A DNA stretch of 64,000 nucleotides from Exiguobacterium profundum (lineage in GTDB: Bacteria > Bacillota > Bacilli > Exiguobacteriales > Exiguobacteriaceae), in contig NZ_MRSV01000001.1 of the NCBI RefSeq assembly GCF_001909285.1, positions 1,940,556-2,004,555 on the forward strand, given 5' to 3'. A model generated the notes under the pieces. The model did not search any database, had not been told where the DNA came from, and saw nothing but the letters and a program-made list of their open reading frames with translations. Both the position numbers and the translations under genes were made by a program. Positions 33,135 to 39,230 of the stretch are shown piece by piece. Every line of letters starts with the position of its first letter. Position 1 is the stretch's first letter.

Positions 33135-33806
33135 TTACTTCTCATATCGAACGATCCACTGTTCCCCTTGTTTCATCATGCCCGTCCCGACCCAACCGGC
33201 TTGGAGCAACTCAACTTGTCGCTCACGATTTTCCATCGGTACATCTTGCACAACTGATGTGGGATGCCACGAACGATGCATCTCTTTGTAAAAAATATAG
33301 CGGAGTTTCCCGCCATACTTTTCTTTCAACGCCCCGATTCTGAGTCCGAGCGTGAACTTGTCTTTCATGCTTGGAATATTGAAGGGTGCGACCGTCGCAC
33401 AGACGACATCGAATCGATCATCCGATTCCACTTGTGCCATCAACAGTTTGCCTAAATGTGTCTGTAGTCCATATCCACGGAAGTCTGGATGGACGTTCGT
33501 CACTTCCTGATACAGGACACGTTCAAGCGAATCCTCCGGCCATCCGATATCCCGCCCTAGATGTTCCGCATCGATCGGTGGGATGAGCATCGCTCGGAAC
33601 GCGATGATCCGACCATCTGATTTTGCCCCAATCAACGTCTGGTCATTCAATAGTTTCGTGAACTCCTCGATGGATAGCGATTGATAATGTTCTGGTTCAG
33701 TCAATGCCTGAATGACCGCATCTTGGACGGACAACAGTTCCGGTAAATCAGACAAGCCTAGAACGCAAACATAAAGGGAAAGGTCTTTGATCTCACCTTT
33801 CCACAT
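33135..33806 (-). CDS. GNAT acetyl/succinyltransferase of the racemase cluster
   Basis: The 223-residue protein has the GNAT CoA-binding region EVTNVHPDFRGYGLQTHLGKLLM. The following TVAPFNIPSMKDKFTLGLRIGALKEKYGGKLRYI resembles the GNATs found beside N-succinylamino-acid racemases. It would transfer a succinyl group to D-amino acids. The ATG at 33806 has GGAG nine bases upstream; a TTG five codons earlier lacks a site. It overlaps the racemase gene by 14 bases. The assignment to succinyl-CoA comes from context, so acetyl-CoA is not excluded. Confidence 0.72.
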   Translation of the reverse strand: MWKGEIKDLSLYVCVLGLSDLPELLSVQDAVIQALTEPEHYQSLSIEEFTKLLNDQTLIGAKSDGRIIAFRAMLIPPIDAEHLGRDIGWPEDSLERVLYQEVTNVHPDFRGYGLQTHLGKLLMAQVESDDRFDVVCATVAPFNIPSMKDKFTLGLRIGALKEKYGGKLRYIFYKEMHRSWHPTSVVQDVPMENRERQVELLQAGWVGTGMMKQGEQWIVRYEK

Positions 33807-34929
33807 GCGATTCTTCTCCAATCACGTAAGAATCCGTCGTCAATTCACGCAACACGTCCTCATCGACGTCAATACCGAGTCCCGGACGATTGTTCAGCGA
33901 GATGATTGGTAAATCATATAATAAGTTTCCGACATCTTTCCCGAATCGGAGCGGGCCCGTCAACTCGACCGTCTTCACGATTTTACTCGAGAAAGCGACG
34001 TGGAATCCTGCACTCGATGCAATAGAGGATTCGACCATGGAACCGATCTGGCATTCGATTCCGGACATTTCCGCCATATGGACCAACTTTCTCGCTGGAT
34101 AGATGCCACCACACTTCATCAGCTTGATGTTCGCTTTATGGGCTGCTTGCATCATCGTCAAGCGTCTCATATCGTGAACGTCTTTCAGCCCTTCATCCAT
34201 CATGAGCGGGACGGAAATTTTTTGTTTCATTTTTAGCATGCCTTCAAAATCATCCGCCTTGACCGGTTGTTCGACCCAATCGATGCCATACGGTTCGAGT
34301 AGACGCATGGCTTGAACCGTATTGGCCGCGTTGACCCACCCTTGGTTAACATCGACTCGAATCGGCACGTCATTTCCTACCGCTTCCCGTACCGCCTTGA
34401 CACGCGCCACATCCGTTTGCACATCGACTCCGACCTTCATCTTCACTGCCGTATAGCCTCGTTTCATTTGTTCGAGTGCCTCTTGTGCCATATGGTTCGG
34501 CTCTCCGATACTCAAGACGTGCGTGACTGGGAATGACTCATGGTACCGACCGCCAATCCATTCGTAGATGGGTTGATTCAGCTTTTTCCCGATCACATCA
34601 TGACAGGCGATATCGAGTGCTGCTTTGGCAGCCGGAACACCACGAATCGCACGGTCCATCTCGTCATGAATATGCTCTAAGTGCATCGGATTTTTTCCGA
34701 TTAGGTGCGGAGCCAATAGATGACGGAGGACGCTGACCGTGCTCTCAGCGGACTCACCCGTCACATGCTCATCCGCCACGGCTTCTCCATATCCGACAAG
34801 TCCACATGCGGTCGTCATTTTGACGATGACAGATGGCATATCATCATAACGGTGATAACTGACGATGAATGGTACCTTCAATGGAAAGCGAACCGAGAAA
34901 ATTTCTATTTTTTGAATATTCTTGTTCAT
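33793..34929 (-). CDS. Enolase-superfamily racemase, N-succinyl-amino-acid racemase-like
   Basis: The 378-residue enzyme is a muconate-lactonising subgroup member. Catalytic Lys residues sit in AVKMKVG (163-165). Metal ligands are Asp193 (RVDVNQGW), Glu220 (WVEQPV) and Asp245 (LMMDEGL). The second-base lysine lies in NIKLMKCGG. From memory it closely resembles the Bacillus cereus N-succinyl-Arg/Lys racemase group, including VADEHVTGES and GSMVESS. A dipeptide epimerase is the main alternative. The ATG has GGAG only about two bases away, an oddly short spacing; a GTG sits one codon earlier. Confidence 0.8.
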   Translation of the reverse strand: MNKNIQKIEIFSVRFPLKVPFIVSYHRYDDMPSVIVKMTTACGLVGYGEAVADEHVTGESAESTVSVLRHLLAPHLIGKNPMHLEHIHDEMDRAIRGVPAAKAALDIACHDVIGKKLNQPIYEWIGGRYHESFPVTHVLSIGEPNHMAQEALEQMKRGYTAVKMKVGVDVQTDVARVKAVREAVGNDVPIRVDVNQGWVNAANTVQAMRLLEPYGIDWVEQPVKADDFEGMLKMKQKISVPLMMDEGLKDVHDMRRLTMMQAAHKANIKLMKCGGIYPARKLVHMAEMSGIECQIGSMVESSIASSAGFHVAFSSKIVKTVELTGPLRFGKDVGNLLYDLPIISLNNRPGLGIDVDEDVLRELTTDSYVIGEESHVER

Positions 34930-34962
34930 CACTCCTTTACTTCAACTGCTCTTTCCTCTATA

Positions 34963-34983
34963 TTGTCGTTATATAGTCGCTAA
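34963..34983. promoter_or_regulatory. Candidate operator 1 of the racemase cluster
   Basis: Two tandem half-sites, TTGTCGTTA and WGTCGCTAA, with an 11-bp period lie between the divergent racemase and regulator genes, 20 bp before the regulator ATG. A second copy at 37678-37698 differs at one of 21 positions. It also overlaps a possible -10 (TATAGT). Confidence 0.65.
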
Positions 34984-35002
34984 ATTGCAAGGGGGATTTT
35001 CA

Positions 35003-36202
35003 ATGTCCATCCATATCGCCGTTGTCGGCTCACCATCGTTTATACAACAGGTACGGAACGGTTCTTCTTTACCCGATGTTCGAATCGAGGGATTTCCTTA
35101 TGATGACCCGCGTGAAGCGAAGGACATCGCTACGAAACTCCTATTTTTTGACGGAGTGTTCTTCTCCGGTTCATTCCCTTATACGTATGCGACGGAGGAA
35201 GCGACCCTTCCATTTGCCCATCACGTCGTTCAAGATGATGTCGTGTTGTTGACGTCACTTTTATACGTGACATTGACACAACAGCTCCGAATCGAAGAGC
35301 TCTCCATCGATCTCGTTGATGCGTCACGACTTGAATCAATTTTAGCATCGTTTCCAAGCCACATGTCGCCACCGCAAGTGAAAGAACTTAGTCCGTATAT
35401 GAATTTCGAAGAGTTGATTTCGTTTCATGAGCAACTTCAACGAAATGGGACGACTCGATTCGCCTTGACGAGTGTCGAGCGAGTTCATCGACACTTAGTG
35501 GAAAATGGTTTTGCTAGCCAACTCATGATGGAGCCGGAAGAGAGAATTCTCCACCACTTCCATGATTTTATTCAACAGATTCGATTGAACAAATCAGACC
35601 AGTCACAACTCGCCGTGCTCTTCTACTCGGATGCCAGTGAAGATACGCTCAACCATGTGACAACACATCATTATTTCGGTGGTAAATTGATGGAGACCAC
35701 TCAAGACGGTATCGTCCTATTATCGAGTAAAGGAAAGATTGACTCCGCCATGTCAAACGGTTTCATCTTGTCAGAGAACATTTCTGGTCATGTAGGGATC
35801 GGGTATGGTTCCGATTATCAACGCGCCGTTGAGCATGCCGAACTTGCCCTTCATACGACAAACAATGCCGCTATTCGCATCGTCGACGATTCAAAACGAA
35901 TGACGTTCAGCGATCAACCGGCACCGATTCATTTCCGCGTCACGCAAACGCGTGTCTATGACATGATGAAACAGACGGGTATGAGTCCGATTAATATCGA
36001 AAAGCTCATTCATTTTTCAATGGACCATCTCGAGTTTACAGCGAAAGAGCTGACCGACCATTTAAATGTGACACGTCGCACGACAGAGCGACTCATCAAA
36101 AAATTGGTTGATGCAAAACTTGTTCATCGGATTGGCGAAGAGATGAGCTACAGCCAAGGTCGTCCGCGTACCGTCTATAAATTTCAATTCCCGGTCGATT
36201 GA
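35003..36202 (+). CDS. Putative transcriptional regulator of the racemase cluster
   Basis: The 399-residue protein has a C-terminal winged helix (about 330-395: FTAKELTDHLNVTRRTTERLIKKLVDAKLVHRIG). The central part (215-300) reads like a degenerate GGDEF-type fold, with HVGIGYGSDYQRAVEHAELAL but no catalytic GGDEF. The N-terminus (1-130) is an alpha/beta sensor-like domain starting MSIHIAVVGSPSF. I cannot name the family. The ATG follows AAGGGGG. Divergence from the racemase and the shared operator copies suggest it controls the cluster, perhaps sensing an amino acid. Confidence 0.72.
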   Translation: MSIHIAVVGSPSFIQQVRNGSSLPDVRIEGFPYDDPREAKDIATKLLFFDGVFFSGSFPYTYATEEATLPFAHHVVQDDVVLLTSLLYVTLTQQLRIEELSIDLVDASRLESILASFPSHMSPPQVKELSPYMNFEELISFHEQLQRNGTTRFALTSVERVHRHLVENGFASQLMMEPEERILHHFHDFIQQIRLNKSDQSQLAVLFYSDASEDTLNHVTTHHYFGGKLMETTQDGIVLLSSKGKIDSAMSNGFILSENISGHVGIGYGSDYQRAVEHAELALHTTNNAAIRIVDDSKRMTFSDQPAPIHFRVTQTRVYDMMKQTGMSPINIEKLIHFSMDHLEFTAKELTDHLNVTRRTTERLIKKLVDAKLVHRIGEEMSYSQGRPRTVYKFQFPVD

Positions 36203-36217
36203 CGACCGGGAATCGTT
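36187..36217 (+). terminator. Terminator of the cluster regulator gene
   Basis: ATTCCCGGTC / GACCGGGAAT (36187-36196 with 36204-36213), overlapping the stop codon, followed by CGTTTTA. Confidence 0.8.
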
Positions 36218-37645
36218 TTATTGAGCCGCTTGTTCCGCGACAGGTTCTTCCTGTTGGATGACTGCCATGCGCTCAATCGTATATCCCGTAAAGGCATATA
36301 CAATCGAGATGACTGGTACGATGAAGTTCAAGACGGCGTAAGGCGCGTATTCGAATGCCCCAACCCCGAGCGTACCGAGAATGAATACCCCACACGTATT
36401 CCACGGGATGAACACCGATGTCAATGTTCCACCGTCCTCGAGGGCACGAGATAAGTTTTTCGACTGTAGTCCCATTTTTTCATATGCTCTAGCAAACATT
36501 CTCGACGGGACGACGATTGAGATGTACTGCTCCGAACACGTCGCATTCGTTGCAATCCCAGCTAAAATCGTTGAAGCAATCAACGAACCTGCCGTTTTCG
36601 CCAATTTCAAAATTTGGTTCATAATAGATTGTAGCATTCCCGAATATTCTAAAATCCCCCCGAACGTCATCGCGACGATGGTCATCGAGACCGTGTACAT
36701 CATCGCATCAAGACCACCTCTACTGAAGAGGTTATCGACCAGTTCATTTCCCGTCTCGATGACATAACCACTCTGAAGAGCGCCTACGCTGTCAGCGAGC
36801 GTTCCACCTTGAATGAACACTTGAGCCAAGAAGCCCAGTGCAATCCCGACGACGAGCGCCGGAATCGCTGGCACCTTCTTTGCAACGAGCAAAATGACAG
36901 CTAGTGGGACGATGAGTAACCATGGTGAGATGACAAAACTATCTTCAAGAATGTTAAGCGTCTGTGTGATCTCTGAAGAGTCCGTCGTCGAATCTGCGAA
37001 CCGTCTACCTAGCCAAGCGTATACCCCTAGCGCGATGATAAGTCCTGGAATCGTCGTATATAACATGTGCCGGATATGTACGAATAAATTAGTATGAGTC
37101 AAGCCGGCCGCCAAGTTTGTCGTGTCTGACAATGGTGACATCTTGTCCCCAAAATATGCACCAGAGATGACAGCCCCCGCTACCATCGGCGCTGGTATCC
37201 CCATACTCAGCCCGATGCCCATCCCCGCTACTCCAATCGTCCCCATCGTCGACCATGAACTCCCGATTGAGAGCGCGACGACCGCACAGATGAGACAAAT
37301 CGTTAACAAAAAGTATGCCGGTGAGATGATCTTCAGTCCGAAATAGATCATCGTGGCAACAATTCCTCCACCGATCCATGCCCCAATCGTCAACCCGACC
37401 AAAATGATGATGACGACTGCCGGTAAGGCGAGACGAATCCCTTTATACATCATCTCTTCAATCTCTTTCCACTTGAACCCGTGACGCCAGGCGACGATTG
37501 AAGCGACTGCCGTTCCGACGATGAGCGGAATGTGAGGACCTTGACCGAGCTTAACGATCGAGATGAGCATGACGACGATCATCACCCCGAGTGGCATGAG
37601 CGCCCACCCTAACTTCATGTCTTGCTTGTTCCCCGTTGTTTCCAT
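36218..37645 (-). CDS. NhaC family Na+/H+ antiporter or amino acid antiporter
   Basis: The 475-residue protein has about 11 membrane segments and NhaC motifs such as GAVISGAYFGDKMSPLSDTTNLAAG and ATNATCSEQYISIVVPSRMF. Some NhaC relatives exchange organic acids or amino acids rather than Na+ (for example malate/lactate by MleN). Within this cluster an amino acid or peptide substrate is plausible. GGGGAGG precedes the ATG. The promoter has a cluster operator copy and a cre-like box. Confidence 0.85.
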   Translation of the reverse strand: METTGNKQDMKLGWALMPLGVMIVVMLISIVKLGQGPHIPLIVGTAVASIVAWRHGFKWKEIEEMMYKGIRLALPAVVIIILVGLTIGAWIGGGIVATMIYFGLKIISPAYFLLTICLICAVVALSIGSSWSTMGTIGVAGMGIGLSMGIPAPMVAGAVISGAYFGDKMSPLSDTTNLAAGLTHTNLFVHIRHMLYTTIPGLIIALGVYAWLGRRFADSTTDSSEITQTLNILEDSFVISPWLLIVPLAVILLVAKKVPAIPALVVGIALGFLAQVFIQGGTLADSVGALQSGYVIETGNELVDNLFSRGGLDAMMYTVSMTIVAMTFGGILEYSGMLQSIMNQILKLAKTAGSLIASTILAGIATNATCSEQYISIVVPSRMFARAYEKMGLQSKNLSRALEDGGTLTSVFIPWNTCGVFILGTLGVGAFEYAPYAVLNFIVPVISIVYAFTGYTIERMAVIQQEEPVAEQAAQ

Positions 37646-37677
37646 CTAATTTCCTCCCCTATAGCGAAAATTCAGAA

Positions 37678-37698
37678 TTGTCGTTATATTGTCGCTAA
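37678..37698. promoter_or_regulatory. Candidate operator 2 of the racemase cluster
   Basis: Tandem TTGTCGTTA and TTGTCGCTAA half-sites with an 11-bp period, matching operator 1 at 20 of 21 positions. It lies just downstream of the NhaC -10 (minus strand), a position suited to repression. A reversed half-site (TTTTCGCTAT) lies at 37660-37669. Confidence 0.7.
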
Positions 37699-37705
37699 TA
37701 ACGTT

Positions 37706-37734
37706 ATGATAGCGCTTACACTTATGTGATGCAA
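37706..37734 (-). promoter_or_regulatory. NhaC promoter with an embedded cre-like box
   Basis: TTGCAT (-35, 37729-37734) and TATCAT (-10, 37706-37711) are 17 bp apart on the minus strand. TGATAGCGCTTACA at 37707-37720 matches cre with one mismatch and covers the spacer, so CcpA would repress. Confidence 0.6.
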
Positions 37735-37735
37735 T

Positions 37736-37775
37736 AAAAAAATGAGTGGACAGACATCTGTCTATCACACTCATT
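37736..37775 (-). terminator. Terminator of the M20 deacylase gene
   Basis: An AATGAGTG / CACTCATT outer stem with an inner GACAGATGTCTGTC stem, followed by T on the minus strand. Confidence 0.85.
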
Positions 37776-37780
37776 CTGAA

Positions 37781-38869
37781 TTATGTTGCTGCAATTCGGA
37801 GCGCATCCGCAAGTAGGCGTGCCCCATCTTCTAACGCGTCATGGTCAAACGTCATATGCGGATGATGAAGGCCTGGACCTAAATCAGCGCCGATTCCAAT
37901 CATCGTCGCATCAAGTGACGGTTTCTCGACGGTATAGAAATGAAAATCATCGCTACCTGACGTGACAATTCTCTCGACGAGAGCCGACTGATCGAAGCGT
38001 TGCTCAATCGCCTGCTTCGCAATCTGACTTGACTGTTCCCCAACGACCGCTCCCGGTGTGAAGTCTTGCCACTCCCATTCCAGTTTCACACGATGAAGCT
38101 GCCCGACATGGAGTAGCATGTCTTCGACACGATTTCGCAGTTCGAGCAATTCCTCATTTTGTTGAGCACGGACATCAATCGAGAACGTCGCATTTCCTGG
38201 AATGATGTTCATGTTGTCACTTCCAGCATGGACTTTTGTCAACTTGACGGAGTGTGGCTCAAACGGTGACAAGTAAATGCTTTTGAGCATGTGTTGAATC
38301 GTGAAGATGACATCGAGTGCATTCTGCCCTTGATGTGGTCTCGCTCCATGGGCATCATCTCCAAGCACTTCTCCTTTTAGGAAGAAGGCAGCCCCATGTT
38401 GAATTGCCGCCGCGTATTGCCCCTTTTTCAATTTTTTTTTCGGACGCAAATGAATCCCGAACAGTTGCGTCACGTCTTCGAGCGCACCTCGTTCGATCAT
38501 GGCGAGCGAACCGTTTCCTTGCTCTTCGGCAGGTTGGAAGATGAAACGGATTCGCTTTTGTAACGCTTCGTCTTTCAACTGTTCGAGCGCACCGAGCACC
38601 ATACTGATGTTCGCGTCGTGCCCACATGAATGGTTCGCTCGAAACGTACCGTCCACTTGTTGCCATAACGCGTCGATATCGGCTCGGACCGCAATCACCT
38701 CTTCTCCCGATCCAATCTCCGCGATTACTCCGGTCACGTCCTCAAACGTTCGATGGGGAATCGACCAGTCTGATAAGATGGATGCGATTGTTCGAGTCGT
38801 CTCGACTTCTTTCCAACTGATTTCTGGATGAGCATGAAAATGTTCAAACCACTTGAGTACGTTTGTCAT
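37781..38869 (-). CDS. M20 family amidohydrolase (N-acyl amino acid deacylase type)
   Basis: The 362-residue protein has M20 metal-site motifs: VRADIDALW, SCGHDANISMVLGAL, FQPAEEQGNG, then HGARPHQGQNALD in the dimerisation domain. It matches the amidohydrolase/hippurate hydrolase branch that removes acyl groups from amino acids. In this cluster it would desuccinylate the L-form made by the racemase. The ATG at 38869 has GGAG six bases upstream. Longer starts have no site. It follows the DoxX-like gene by 16 bp, so they may be co-transcribed. Confidence 0.85.
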   Translation of the reverse strand: MTNVLKWFEHFHAHPEISWKEVETTRTIASILSDWSIPHRTFEDVTGVIAEIGSGEEVIAVRADIDALWQQVDGTFRANHSCGHDANISMVLGALEQLKDEALQKRIRFIFQPAEEQGNGSLAMIERGALEDVTQLFGIHLRPKKKLKKGQYAAAIQHGAAFFLKGEVLGDDAHGARPHQGQNALDVIFTIQHMLKSIYLSPFEPHSVKLTKVHAGSDNMNIIPGNATFSIDVRAQQNEELLELRNRVEDMLLHVGQLHRVKLEWEWQDFTPGAVVGEQSSQIAKQAIEQRFDQSALVERIVTSGSDDFHFYTVEKPSLDATMIGIGADLGPGLHHPHMTFDHDALEDGARLLADALRIAAT

Positions 38870-38885
38870 ATGTATCTCCACACCT

Positions 38886-39230
38886 TTAGATTTTTTTGAC
38901 ACCTTTTATAAGAATCCATTGAAGCGGGAGTCGTCCCCATGTAACCCATTTCGGAATGACTTTCCCACCGATTCTAGAAGGTTTGACCGCCATGTTGATA
39001 TTGGCTGGGAAGACGGCGATAAAGAATGCCGGTAGCGTTTTCTTTACGAACGTCGTCCCCTTGTTCAGTAAGAGCATCGCCCCGAAGACGACTTCAACGA
39101 CTCCGCTTAGTTGCACCATCAAGCGGCGGAACGGCCAAGATTTCGGAATAATAGACATGAACGCCTTCTCTTTGACAAAATGTAATACCCCTGCCCCGAA
39201 GAGTAACACCCCATATAAATTTCGTACCAT
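38886..39230 (-). CDS. DoxX-like small membrane protein
   Basis: The 114-residue protein has about four hydrophobic segments and the DoxX-type start VRNLYGVLLFGAGVLHFVKEKAF. DoxX relatives are linked to quinone or thiosulphate redox chemistry, and the function is poorly defined. AAGGAGG precedes the ATG. Only 16 bp separate it from the M20 gene downstream, so it may belong to the racemase cluster transcript by position. No role there is evident. Confidence 0.72.
   Translation of the reverse strand: MVRNLYGVLLFGAGVLHFVKEKAFMSIIPKSWPFRRLMVQLSGVVEVVFGAMLLLNKGTTFVKKTLPAFFIAVFPANINMAVKPSRIGGKVIPKWVTWGRLPLQWILIKGVKKI

Follow-up and report, generated by a model that had tools for sequence, protein, structure and literature searches.

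A window of 64,000 nucleotides from the Exiguobacterium profundum genome (assembly GCF_001909285.1, contig NZ_MRSV01000001.1, positions 1,940,556 to 2,004,555) harbours, at window positions 33135-38869, five genes that appear to constitute a self-contained, repressor-controlled unit for the conversion of D- to L-amino acids, probably basic ones, a reading to which we assign a probability of roughly 0.65. The case is built on the gene content and conservation of the cluster, the clade shared by its racemase and BC0371, the subfamily of its M20 hydrolase, its operator sites and the predicted folds of two of its proteins. The original prediction had placed a GNAT, an enolase-superfamily racemase, an M20 amidohydrolase, an NhaC transporter and a divergent regulator in this region, and all five open reading frames (ORFs) are found there. 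The GNAT and racemase genes are read leftwards and the regulator rightwards from the same intergenic region, with nhaC and the M20 gene, both read leftwards, lying beyond. Nothing on the cluster, the regulator or the shared operator was found among the matches listed for the open-licence literature. The features, in window coordinates, are:

33135..33821, minus strand: GNAT-fold N-acyltransferase, proposed D-amino-acid N-succinyltransferase; 29-base overlap with the racemase ORF
33793..34932, minus strand: enolase-superfamily racemase of the BC0371 clade (MR_MLE domains, tree); start at GTG 34932 or ATG 34929
34936..34964, plus strand: promoter-like TTTACT-17-TATATT towards the regulator, a consensus match only; operator 1 starts at the end of the second hexamer
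34963..34983, minus strand: operator 1, TTAGCGACTATATAACGACAA, between racemase and regulator; direct repeat of period 11
35003..36202, plus strand: regulator, proposed ligand-relieved repressor (predicted model and fold matches)
36187..36213, plus strand: terminator-like hairpin where the regulator and nhaC genes converge
36218..37645, minus strand: NhaC-superfamily carrier, proposed importer of (basic D-) amino acids (TIGR00931)
37678..37698, minus strand: operator 2, TTAGCGACAATATAACGACAA, upstream of nhaC
37707..37720, minus strand: CcpA cre-like site, TGTAAGCGCTATCA, upstream of nhaC
37749..37766, minus strand: terminator-like hairpin between the M20 gene and nhaC
37781..38869, minus strand: M20D amidohydrolase, proposed N-succinyl-L-amino-acid desuccinylase; a GTG start at 38902 is also open

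The hairpin between them suggests that the M20 gene and nhaC are separate transcription units; terminator-like sites numbered 12 in the scan, against 5.1 in shuffled sequence.

The racemase, its acyltransferase and their conservation

The racemase possesses both the N- and C-terminal MR_MLE domains in a Pfam family search, and its best solved relatives are 2p88, 2p8b and 2p8c (E = 2e-159), with 3jva next (E = 1.6e-72). These entries represent BC0371, the N-succinyl-Arg/Lys racemase of Bacillus cereus, whose activity on these substrates was reportedly confirmed by assay by Song in 2007. The window protein is identical to BC0371 at 228 of 361 aligned residues (63%). In an IQ-TREE phylogeny of 39 racemases including BC0371 and 3jva, rooted at the midpoint and with two long branches (3jva and locus L108) meeting, BC0371 and 19 loci, among them the window racemase, make up a clade of 20 rows with support of 100/99; the GNAT gene is unlinked in just one of the 19 (L080). 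Seven positions mark this clade. All 18 rows with a linked GNAT have the same residue there, which is rare among the 20 others (L080, which has five of the seven, was excluded from their definition), and BC0371 and the window racemase agree at all seven. Residues K164, K166, D194, E221, D246 and K270, which cover the positions of the two catalytic lysines and three metal-binding acids, are invariant in all 39 rows, as is E323. At the five nearest named loci, all in Exiguobacterium, the racemase is 92-96% identical to that of the window. BC0371 itself was assigned alone, being predicted by docking to act on N-succinyl arginine, and the passages of PMC4372640 that concern it describe no partners, regulator or operator.

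A MenC-type N-succinylamino acid racemase (NSAR)/OSBS was considered as an identity for this gene and rejected, the protein scoring 126.9 bits with TIGR01928 against a cut-off of 200.65. The genome additionally carries a MenC-type gene; ExiOSBS is presumably an enzyme of this kind from Exiguobacterium. Values given in passages of PMC8142540, which refer to different substrates, are 41 per M per s for ExiOSBS on N-succinyl-phenylglycine and 23,750 for GkNSAR on N-succinyl-phenylalanine. These values give at most a hint that, in genomes of this kind, the racemase function is not supplied by MenC.

The protein encoded at 33135-33821 is supported as having a GNAT fold by its AlphaFold model (predicted local distance difference test score, pLDDT, 93.4), which matches GNATs in Foldseek (E = 3.5e-8) and superposes on VIA with Z = 16.4 and a root-mean-square deviation (rmsd) of 2.7 over 154 aligned residues. 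This fold gives no acyl donor. The acyl-CoA motif of GNATs has G or A at the point where the window protein, in its loop RGYGLQ (residues 115-120), has Q120, a residue invariant in the GNAT alignment that may bear on the choice of donor.

The expectation that the enzymes are conserved together elsewhere was borne out by the neighbourhood search. In the class, the racemase is present at E = 1e-100 or better in 90 of 398 genomes, including all 19 of the genus and none of the 19 listed for another genus of the same family, and the GNAT profile matches 73 of the 398 at E = 1e-10. Counting co-occurrence by place from the two genome listings, GNAT is present in 62 of the 90 racemase genomes, compared with 11 of the 308 others. 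It is adjacent to the racemase in 45 of the 46 genomes with a racemase at least 58% identical (the exception, G060, has it elsewhere), and in none of the 44 other racemase genomes. Genomes and loci share ancestry, hence these counts are not of independent events.

Gene order was read in 81 loci. Within the genus, M20 is present in 12 of 12 named loci and all five genes occur together in 11, one of which, L014 from a metagenome-assembled genome, has an interrupted regulator frame alongside four open ones. Among 28 close-clade loci outside the genus, Lysinibacillus cavernae (L015) included, there are 27 with GNAT, 19 with NhaC, 17 with the regulator, 15 with M20 and nine with all five; M20 accompanies 14 of the 27 GNAT-bearing loci. 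Many genus loci repeat genomes of the class-wide set (L004 and G016, for example), and the two sets are not additive. Eight loci with racemases of 26-30% identity (L017-L024) lacked the cluster partners and were excluded from the clade counts, and in L089 a racemase is found by tblastn where the simple gene caller gave no ORF.

Several other arrangements were noted. In six loci (L096, L097, L098, L101, L102 and L106), a racemase and an M20 gene lie near a sodium:alanine symporter gene and a gene we take to be RocB-like, for which NCBIfam gave only M20 matches, below cut-off; an aminotransferase gene is present in most. Small f10 genomes hold weaker GNAT relatives (138-168 bits) in the vicinity of NhaC-type genes (615-637 bits), with no racemase beside them (L161, L162 and L164). 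Of 20 loci inspected for unlinked GNAT genes, two (L147 and L166) gave no GNAT ORF in the gene caller, and the neighbours of the g60 group appear, by reading, to be housekeeping genes that offer no lead.

The M20 hydrolase and MenC-type operons

The hydrolase matches Peptidase_M20 and exceeds the TIGR01891 cut-off (267.4 bits against 153.75). Residues H80, C82, H84, D85, E115, E116, H140 and H335 are invariant in 26 aligned M20 proteins; on the roles we presume for them, the metal site is intact.

The same kind of hydrolase occurs in a second setting. Twenty MenC-type loci were chosen among the higher-ranked hits of a search that matched 246 of 378 genomes, and six of these have an M20 gene, a GNAT gene (approximately 270-290 residues) and a MenC-type gene in a row (L230, L232, L234, L237, L238 and L239), while one more (L235) has M20 beside MenC without GNAT. 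Their neighbours include an RpiR-type regulator gene in L230 and a POT-family carrier in L238. The seven MenC-linked M20 proteins are 37-48% identical to that of the window, and in a tree of hand-chosen sequences, three of which have long branches, a 100/100 branch separates the 26 M20 proteins of the cluster and the MenC-type operons from five others taken from racemase or regulator-paralogue loci. The acyltransferases are less alike. The PF00583 cut-off is passed by five of five GNATs scanned from the six operons, and alignment of the window GNAT family with theirs by hhalign gave 23% identity over 133 columns (probability 89.9, E = 1.7e-6), indicating from sequence that the two are distant relatives of different subfamilies.

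The MenC-type layout is presumably that of the D-to-L pathway of Geobacillus kaustophilus, in which, as Sakai is said to have described in 2006, a GNAT, an N-succinylamino acid racemase and an M20 desuccinylase act in sequence. The hydrolase that goes with this MenC-type racemase-GNAT pair is reportedly L-specific. A system combining NSAR and L-succinylase from G. kaustophilus appears in passages of PMC7431475. The original prediction, that the window cluster does the same as this pathway, is supported, with corrections: the enzymes are kept together, the M20 subfamily is shared and the three proposed reaction types are alike. By contrast, the window racemase belongs to another enolase subgroup and the GNAT to another subfamily, and the neighbouring genes of the MenC-type operons differ, so that the cluster would work like the Geobacillus pathway and yet be a separate assembly. 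The simplest reading of these relationships is that one hydrolase subfamily serves two separately assembled racemase-acyltransferase pairs.

The regulator and its operators

No Pfam or NCBIfam family matches the regulator above cut-off, PF06506 reaching 12.5 bits against a cut-off of 29.1. Its predicted model (pLDDT 86.0, predicted template modelling score 0.62) comprises a PrpR_N-like sensor domain (residues ~1-201), a middle alpha/beta domain (~202-307) and a C-terminal winged helix (~312-399). Residues 1-198 match the PrpR N-terminal sensor fold with Z = 17.0 (2q5c) and 15.8 (2pju), the rmsd values being 2.9 and 2.6 over 182 and 181 aligned residues, and residues 312-399 match winged helices. 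Sequence identity to the PrpR sensor domains is 11-12%. The regulator differs from PrpR/NtrC-type activators in having a winged helix, and no sigma-54 ATPase domain is among the 15 Pfam families listed for it at E = 10 or better. The middle domain gives weak matches to nucleotide-cyclase-like folds (Z = 8.2 to 8.7), a resemblance that may stem simply from a widespread arrangement; we make no claim of homology.

The claim that operators are shared within the cluster was upheld. The sequence GTCGTTATATWGTCGCTAA occurs twice in the window, at 34965-34983 and 37680-37698, against an expectation of 0.01, and these are the only two sites in the 2.9 Mb genome, even with three mismatches permitted. 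A site of the type TTARCGAC-N3-TWARCGAC, a direct repeat of period 11, is found in 27 of 27 loci with both a divergent regulator-racemase pair and NhaC, with one or two mismatches in some. A matrix trained on the racemase/regulator intergenic sites of these 27 loci, and scanned over all 81, gave 61 sites of at least 20 bits, compared with three in reversed sequence. Such sites are present in 39 of 41 loci with the regulator and in two of 40 without it, the latter including the eight loci of low racemase identity. As the matrix was built from them, the racemase/regulator intergenic sites are not independent evidence; those before nhaC and at other divergent regulators are. Sites of at least 16 bits precede 23 of 30 nhaC genes, and 11 of the 13 loci that have divergent regulators contain sites of at least 20 bits, which lie ahead of a DcuC/YfcC-like carrier gene in four of them, of an SBP_bac_5 gene in five and of the racemase in two. 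The operator at nhaC, by reading, closely follows a -10-like hexamer in several lineages, the place expected of a repressor. No operator of at least 12 bits precedes the M20 gene of the window.

A cre-like site upstream of nhaC, identified by the cre consensus, is present in the window and in all 11 named Exiguobacterium loci with NhaC. A perfect palindromic cre-like site, TGTAAACGCTTACA, also lies at 481-494 of the window.

The regulator family extends beyond these clusters, its profile matching 145 of 398 genomes at E = 1e-15, several of them more than once. Twenty further loci (L167-L186) were inspected, and within the nearest five genes on either side six have a member of an Amidohydro_3 cluster, assigned from the scan of one member and presumably D-aminoacylase-like. 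An M20 gene is found in six, and genes for ABC transporters of amino acids or peptides occur often. Such neighbours suit a family tied to the use of N-acyl or D-amino acids. The operator motif seems to belong to the racemase-linked branch, since a site of at least 20 bits was found in only one of these 20 loci (L184, itself a high-scoring relative).

Two further layouts were seen. In L169, L171, L172 and L173, a regulator paralogue is followed by Amidohydro_3, class A beta-lactamase-like and amino-acid ABC transporter genes, all in one direction (single members scanned), which suggests a further regulon for using N-acyl-D-amino acids or peptides. Four distant racemase loci (L086, L087, L090 and L114) have M19 dipeptidase, oligopeptide-binding, S12 hydrolase and small GNAT genes, with the same operator before the oligopeptide-binding gene, possibly a D-peptide version of the regulon.

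More broadly, and at somewhat less than even odds, Bacilli may possess a hitherto undescribed repressor family with a PrpR_N-like sensor, cyclase-like middle domain and winged helix that senses an N-acyl (N-succinyl) amino acid and, via tandem TTARCGAC repeats, governs a regulon of modular make-up. At the centre of this regulon would stand a BC0371-type racemase, with the carrier (NhaC, YfcC-like or oligopeptide-binding) and the acyl source (a dedicated GNAT, or none) swapped between lineages.

Substrate, direction and competing explanations

From sequence and context, we infer the activities, substrate, acyl group, D-to-L direction, ligand, and repression rather than activation, in the following scheme. 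The NhaC-type carrier would import a D-amino acid, to the alpha-amino nitrogen of which the GNAT would add a succinyl group; the racemase would interconvert the N-succinyl-D- and L-amino acids through the 1,1-proton transfer typical of the enolase superfamily, which relies on two lysines; and the M20 enzyme would hydrolyse the L-form only, making the flow one-way and yielding L-Arg or L-Lys. The L-Arg could be used by the products of genes that lie elsewhere in the genome, two of the arginase family and one of the arginine deiminase family. The regulator would bind both direct-repeat operators, one at the divergent promoters of racemase and regulator and the other close to that of nhaC, and would let go once a compound of the pathway occupies its PrpR_N-like domain; the cre-like site would add carbon catabolite control to nhaC. 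The hints of basic substrates are indirect. Besides BC0371, these arginase- and deiminase-family genes and the RocB-like gene of some more distant racemase loci, they comprise the membership of the lysine carrier LysW in the NhaC superfamily and the carrier that replaces NhaC in other loci, whose nearest family is YfcC (363.7 bits against a cut-off of 500), annotated as a putative antiporter of basic amino acids.

A number of observations weigh against this reading. The GNAT reaches only E = 0.07 with PF00583, below cut-off, and the enzyme could use acetyl-CoA. The carriers match basic-amino-acid families below cut-off only, and no lysine riboswitch was found in the window or in the 14 related loci searched, the three other RNA elements detected in L064 and L077 not being of this type. 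Promoter matches (10 sites, 8.3 expected in shuffles) are no more frequent than chance, and seven of the 30 nhaC genes lack the operator, five in Lysinibacillus-type loci that have the regulator and two in loci that do not. The cluster is also incomplete in places: in the 28 close-clade loci outside the genus, M20 is absent from 13, NhaC from nine and the regulator from 11, and E. qingdaonense (L007) has no NhaC in the locus. GNAT is found unlinked in 16 of the 44 genomes with more distant racemases (13 strong and three weak matches), and 11 genomes carry it without a racemase at E = 1e-100. Some racemase-regulator clades lack this GNAT, and some of those have genes for peptide uptake and peptidases as neighbours; for part of the racemase family, the substrates may thus be dipeptides or N-acyl compounds of other kinds. 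Four of the five outside M20 proteins are encoded in loci whose racemases fall in more distant clades (L093, L105, L110 and L111), hence not every racemase of the family has a hydrolase of the shared subfamily.

The alternative that survives best, although unlikely, is that the same three-step D-to-L chemistry acts on other amino acids or with another acyl group, for instance N-acetyl, or neutral or aromatic D-amino acids, neither NhaC nor the racemase being tuned to Arg/Lys. The evidence for basic amino acids is indirect, the GNAT fold is silent on the donor, M20D enzymes cleave many N-acyl groups, and GkNSAR is active on N-succinyl-phenylalanine. Set against this are the presence of BC0371 in the same supported clade, the agreement at all seven clade-marking residues, and the docking and reported assay that associate BC0371 with N-succinyl arginine and lysine.

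It is improbable that NhaC is merely a sodium/proton antiporter for pH or salt stress, incidentally placed. As an Na_H_antiporter it scores 449.7 bits with TIGR00931 (cut-off 370), a name that does not fix the substrate, and passages of a genome paper count the nhaC copies of Exiguobacterium as pH genes (PMC6331483). The gene nevertheless has one of only two copies of the cluster operator in the genome, NhaC recurs in 19 of the 28 same-clade loci outside the genus, and elsewhere the operator precedes other carrier types. The NhaC superfamily also contains the ArcD arginine/ornithine antiporter, to whose model NF052307 the window protein scores 370.7 bits (cut-off 650), and, according to passages of PMC5584792, the riboswitch-controlled lysine carrier LysW. 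The window nhaC differs from the latter in sharing a protein-type operator and lacking a lysine riboswitch.

A dipeptide epimerase and peptidase unit salvaging D-containing peptides, as with YkfB/YcjG, is more improbable still, and was rejected as the main explanation. The dipeptide epimerases YkfB (1jpm) and 3jva are the next solved relatives, having the subgroup fold and the lysine pair in common with the window racemase, and at more distant racemase-regulator loci the neighbours include oligopeptide-binding, M19 and S12 genes. These structures match, however, with E-values some 87 orders of magnitude weaker than 2p88. Dipeptide epimerases of the L-Ala-D/L-Glu type hold the substrate amino group with an Asp-x-Asp motif, and the ADLDA of 3jva aligns with VELTG in the window racemase, the aspartate pair being replaced by E-x-T; BC0371 likewise lacks it. 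With the BC0371 clade and the seven residues, this makes the activity on dipeptides that was to count against the original prediction unlikely on sequence grounds. The window cluster has no oligopeptide transporter, and the explanation leaves the GNAT without a role despite its adjacency in 45 of 46 genomes.

Least probable is reverse flow, with D-Arg or D-Lys made from the L-forms as a signal or cell-wall modifier and exported by NhaC, given that the M20 enzyme shares its subfamily with the reportedly L-specific hydrolase that accompanies MenC-type racemase and GNAT, and that the cre-like site fits catabolic use. Consistent with such a flow, the racemase step is reversible and, according to PMC10390336, D-Arg and D-Lys have a signalling role in Vibrio cholerae.

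BC0371 is widely known as an enzyme whose function was predicted by docking, and passages of PMC4372640 give it no role in the cell. The proposed D-to-L conversion cluster offers its clade a plausible one, in the form of a complete, testable pathway of carrier, acyltransferase, racemase, hydrolase and repressor. The use of one hydrolase subfamily by two separately built racemase-acyltransferase pairs, as the M20 tree suggests, would make the hydrolase a marker gene for D-to-L conversion pathways. The regulator and its operator provide a handle on how Bacilli may sense such compounds, with a motif usable for regulon searches in other genomes, and if the broader proposal of a repressor family is true, D-amino-acid recycling in Bacilli would be widespread, of separate evolutionary origin and subject to specific sensing.

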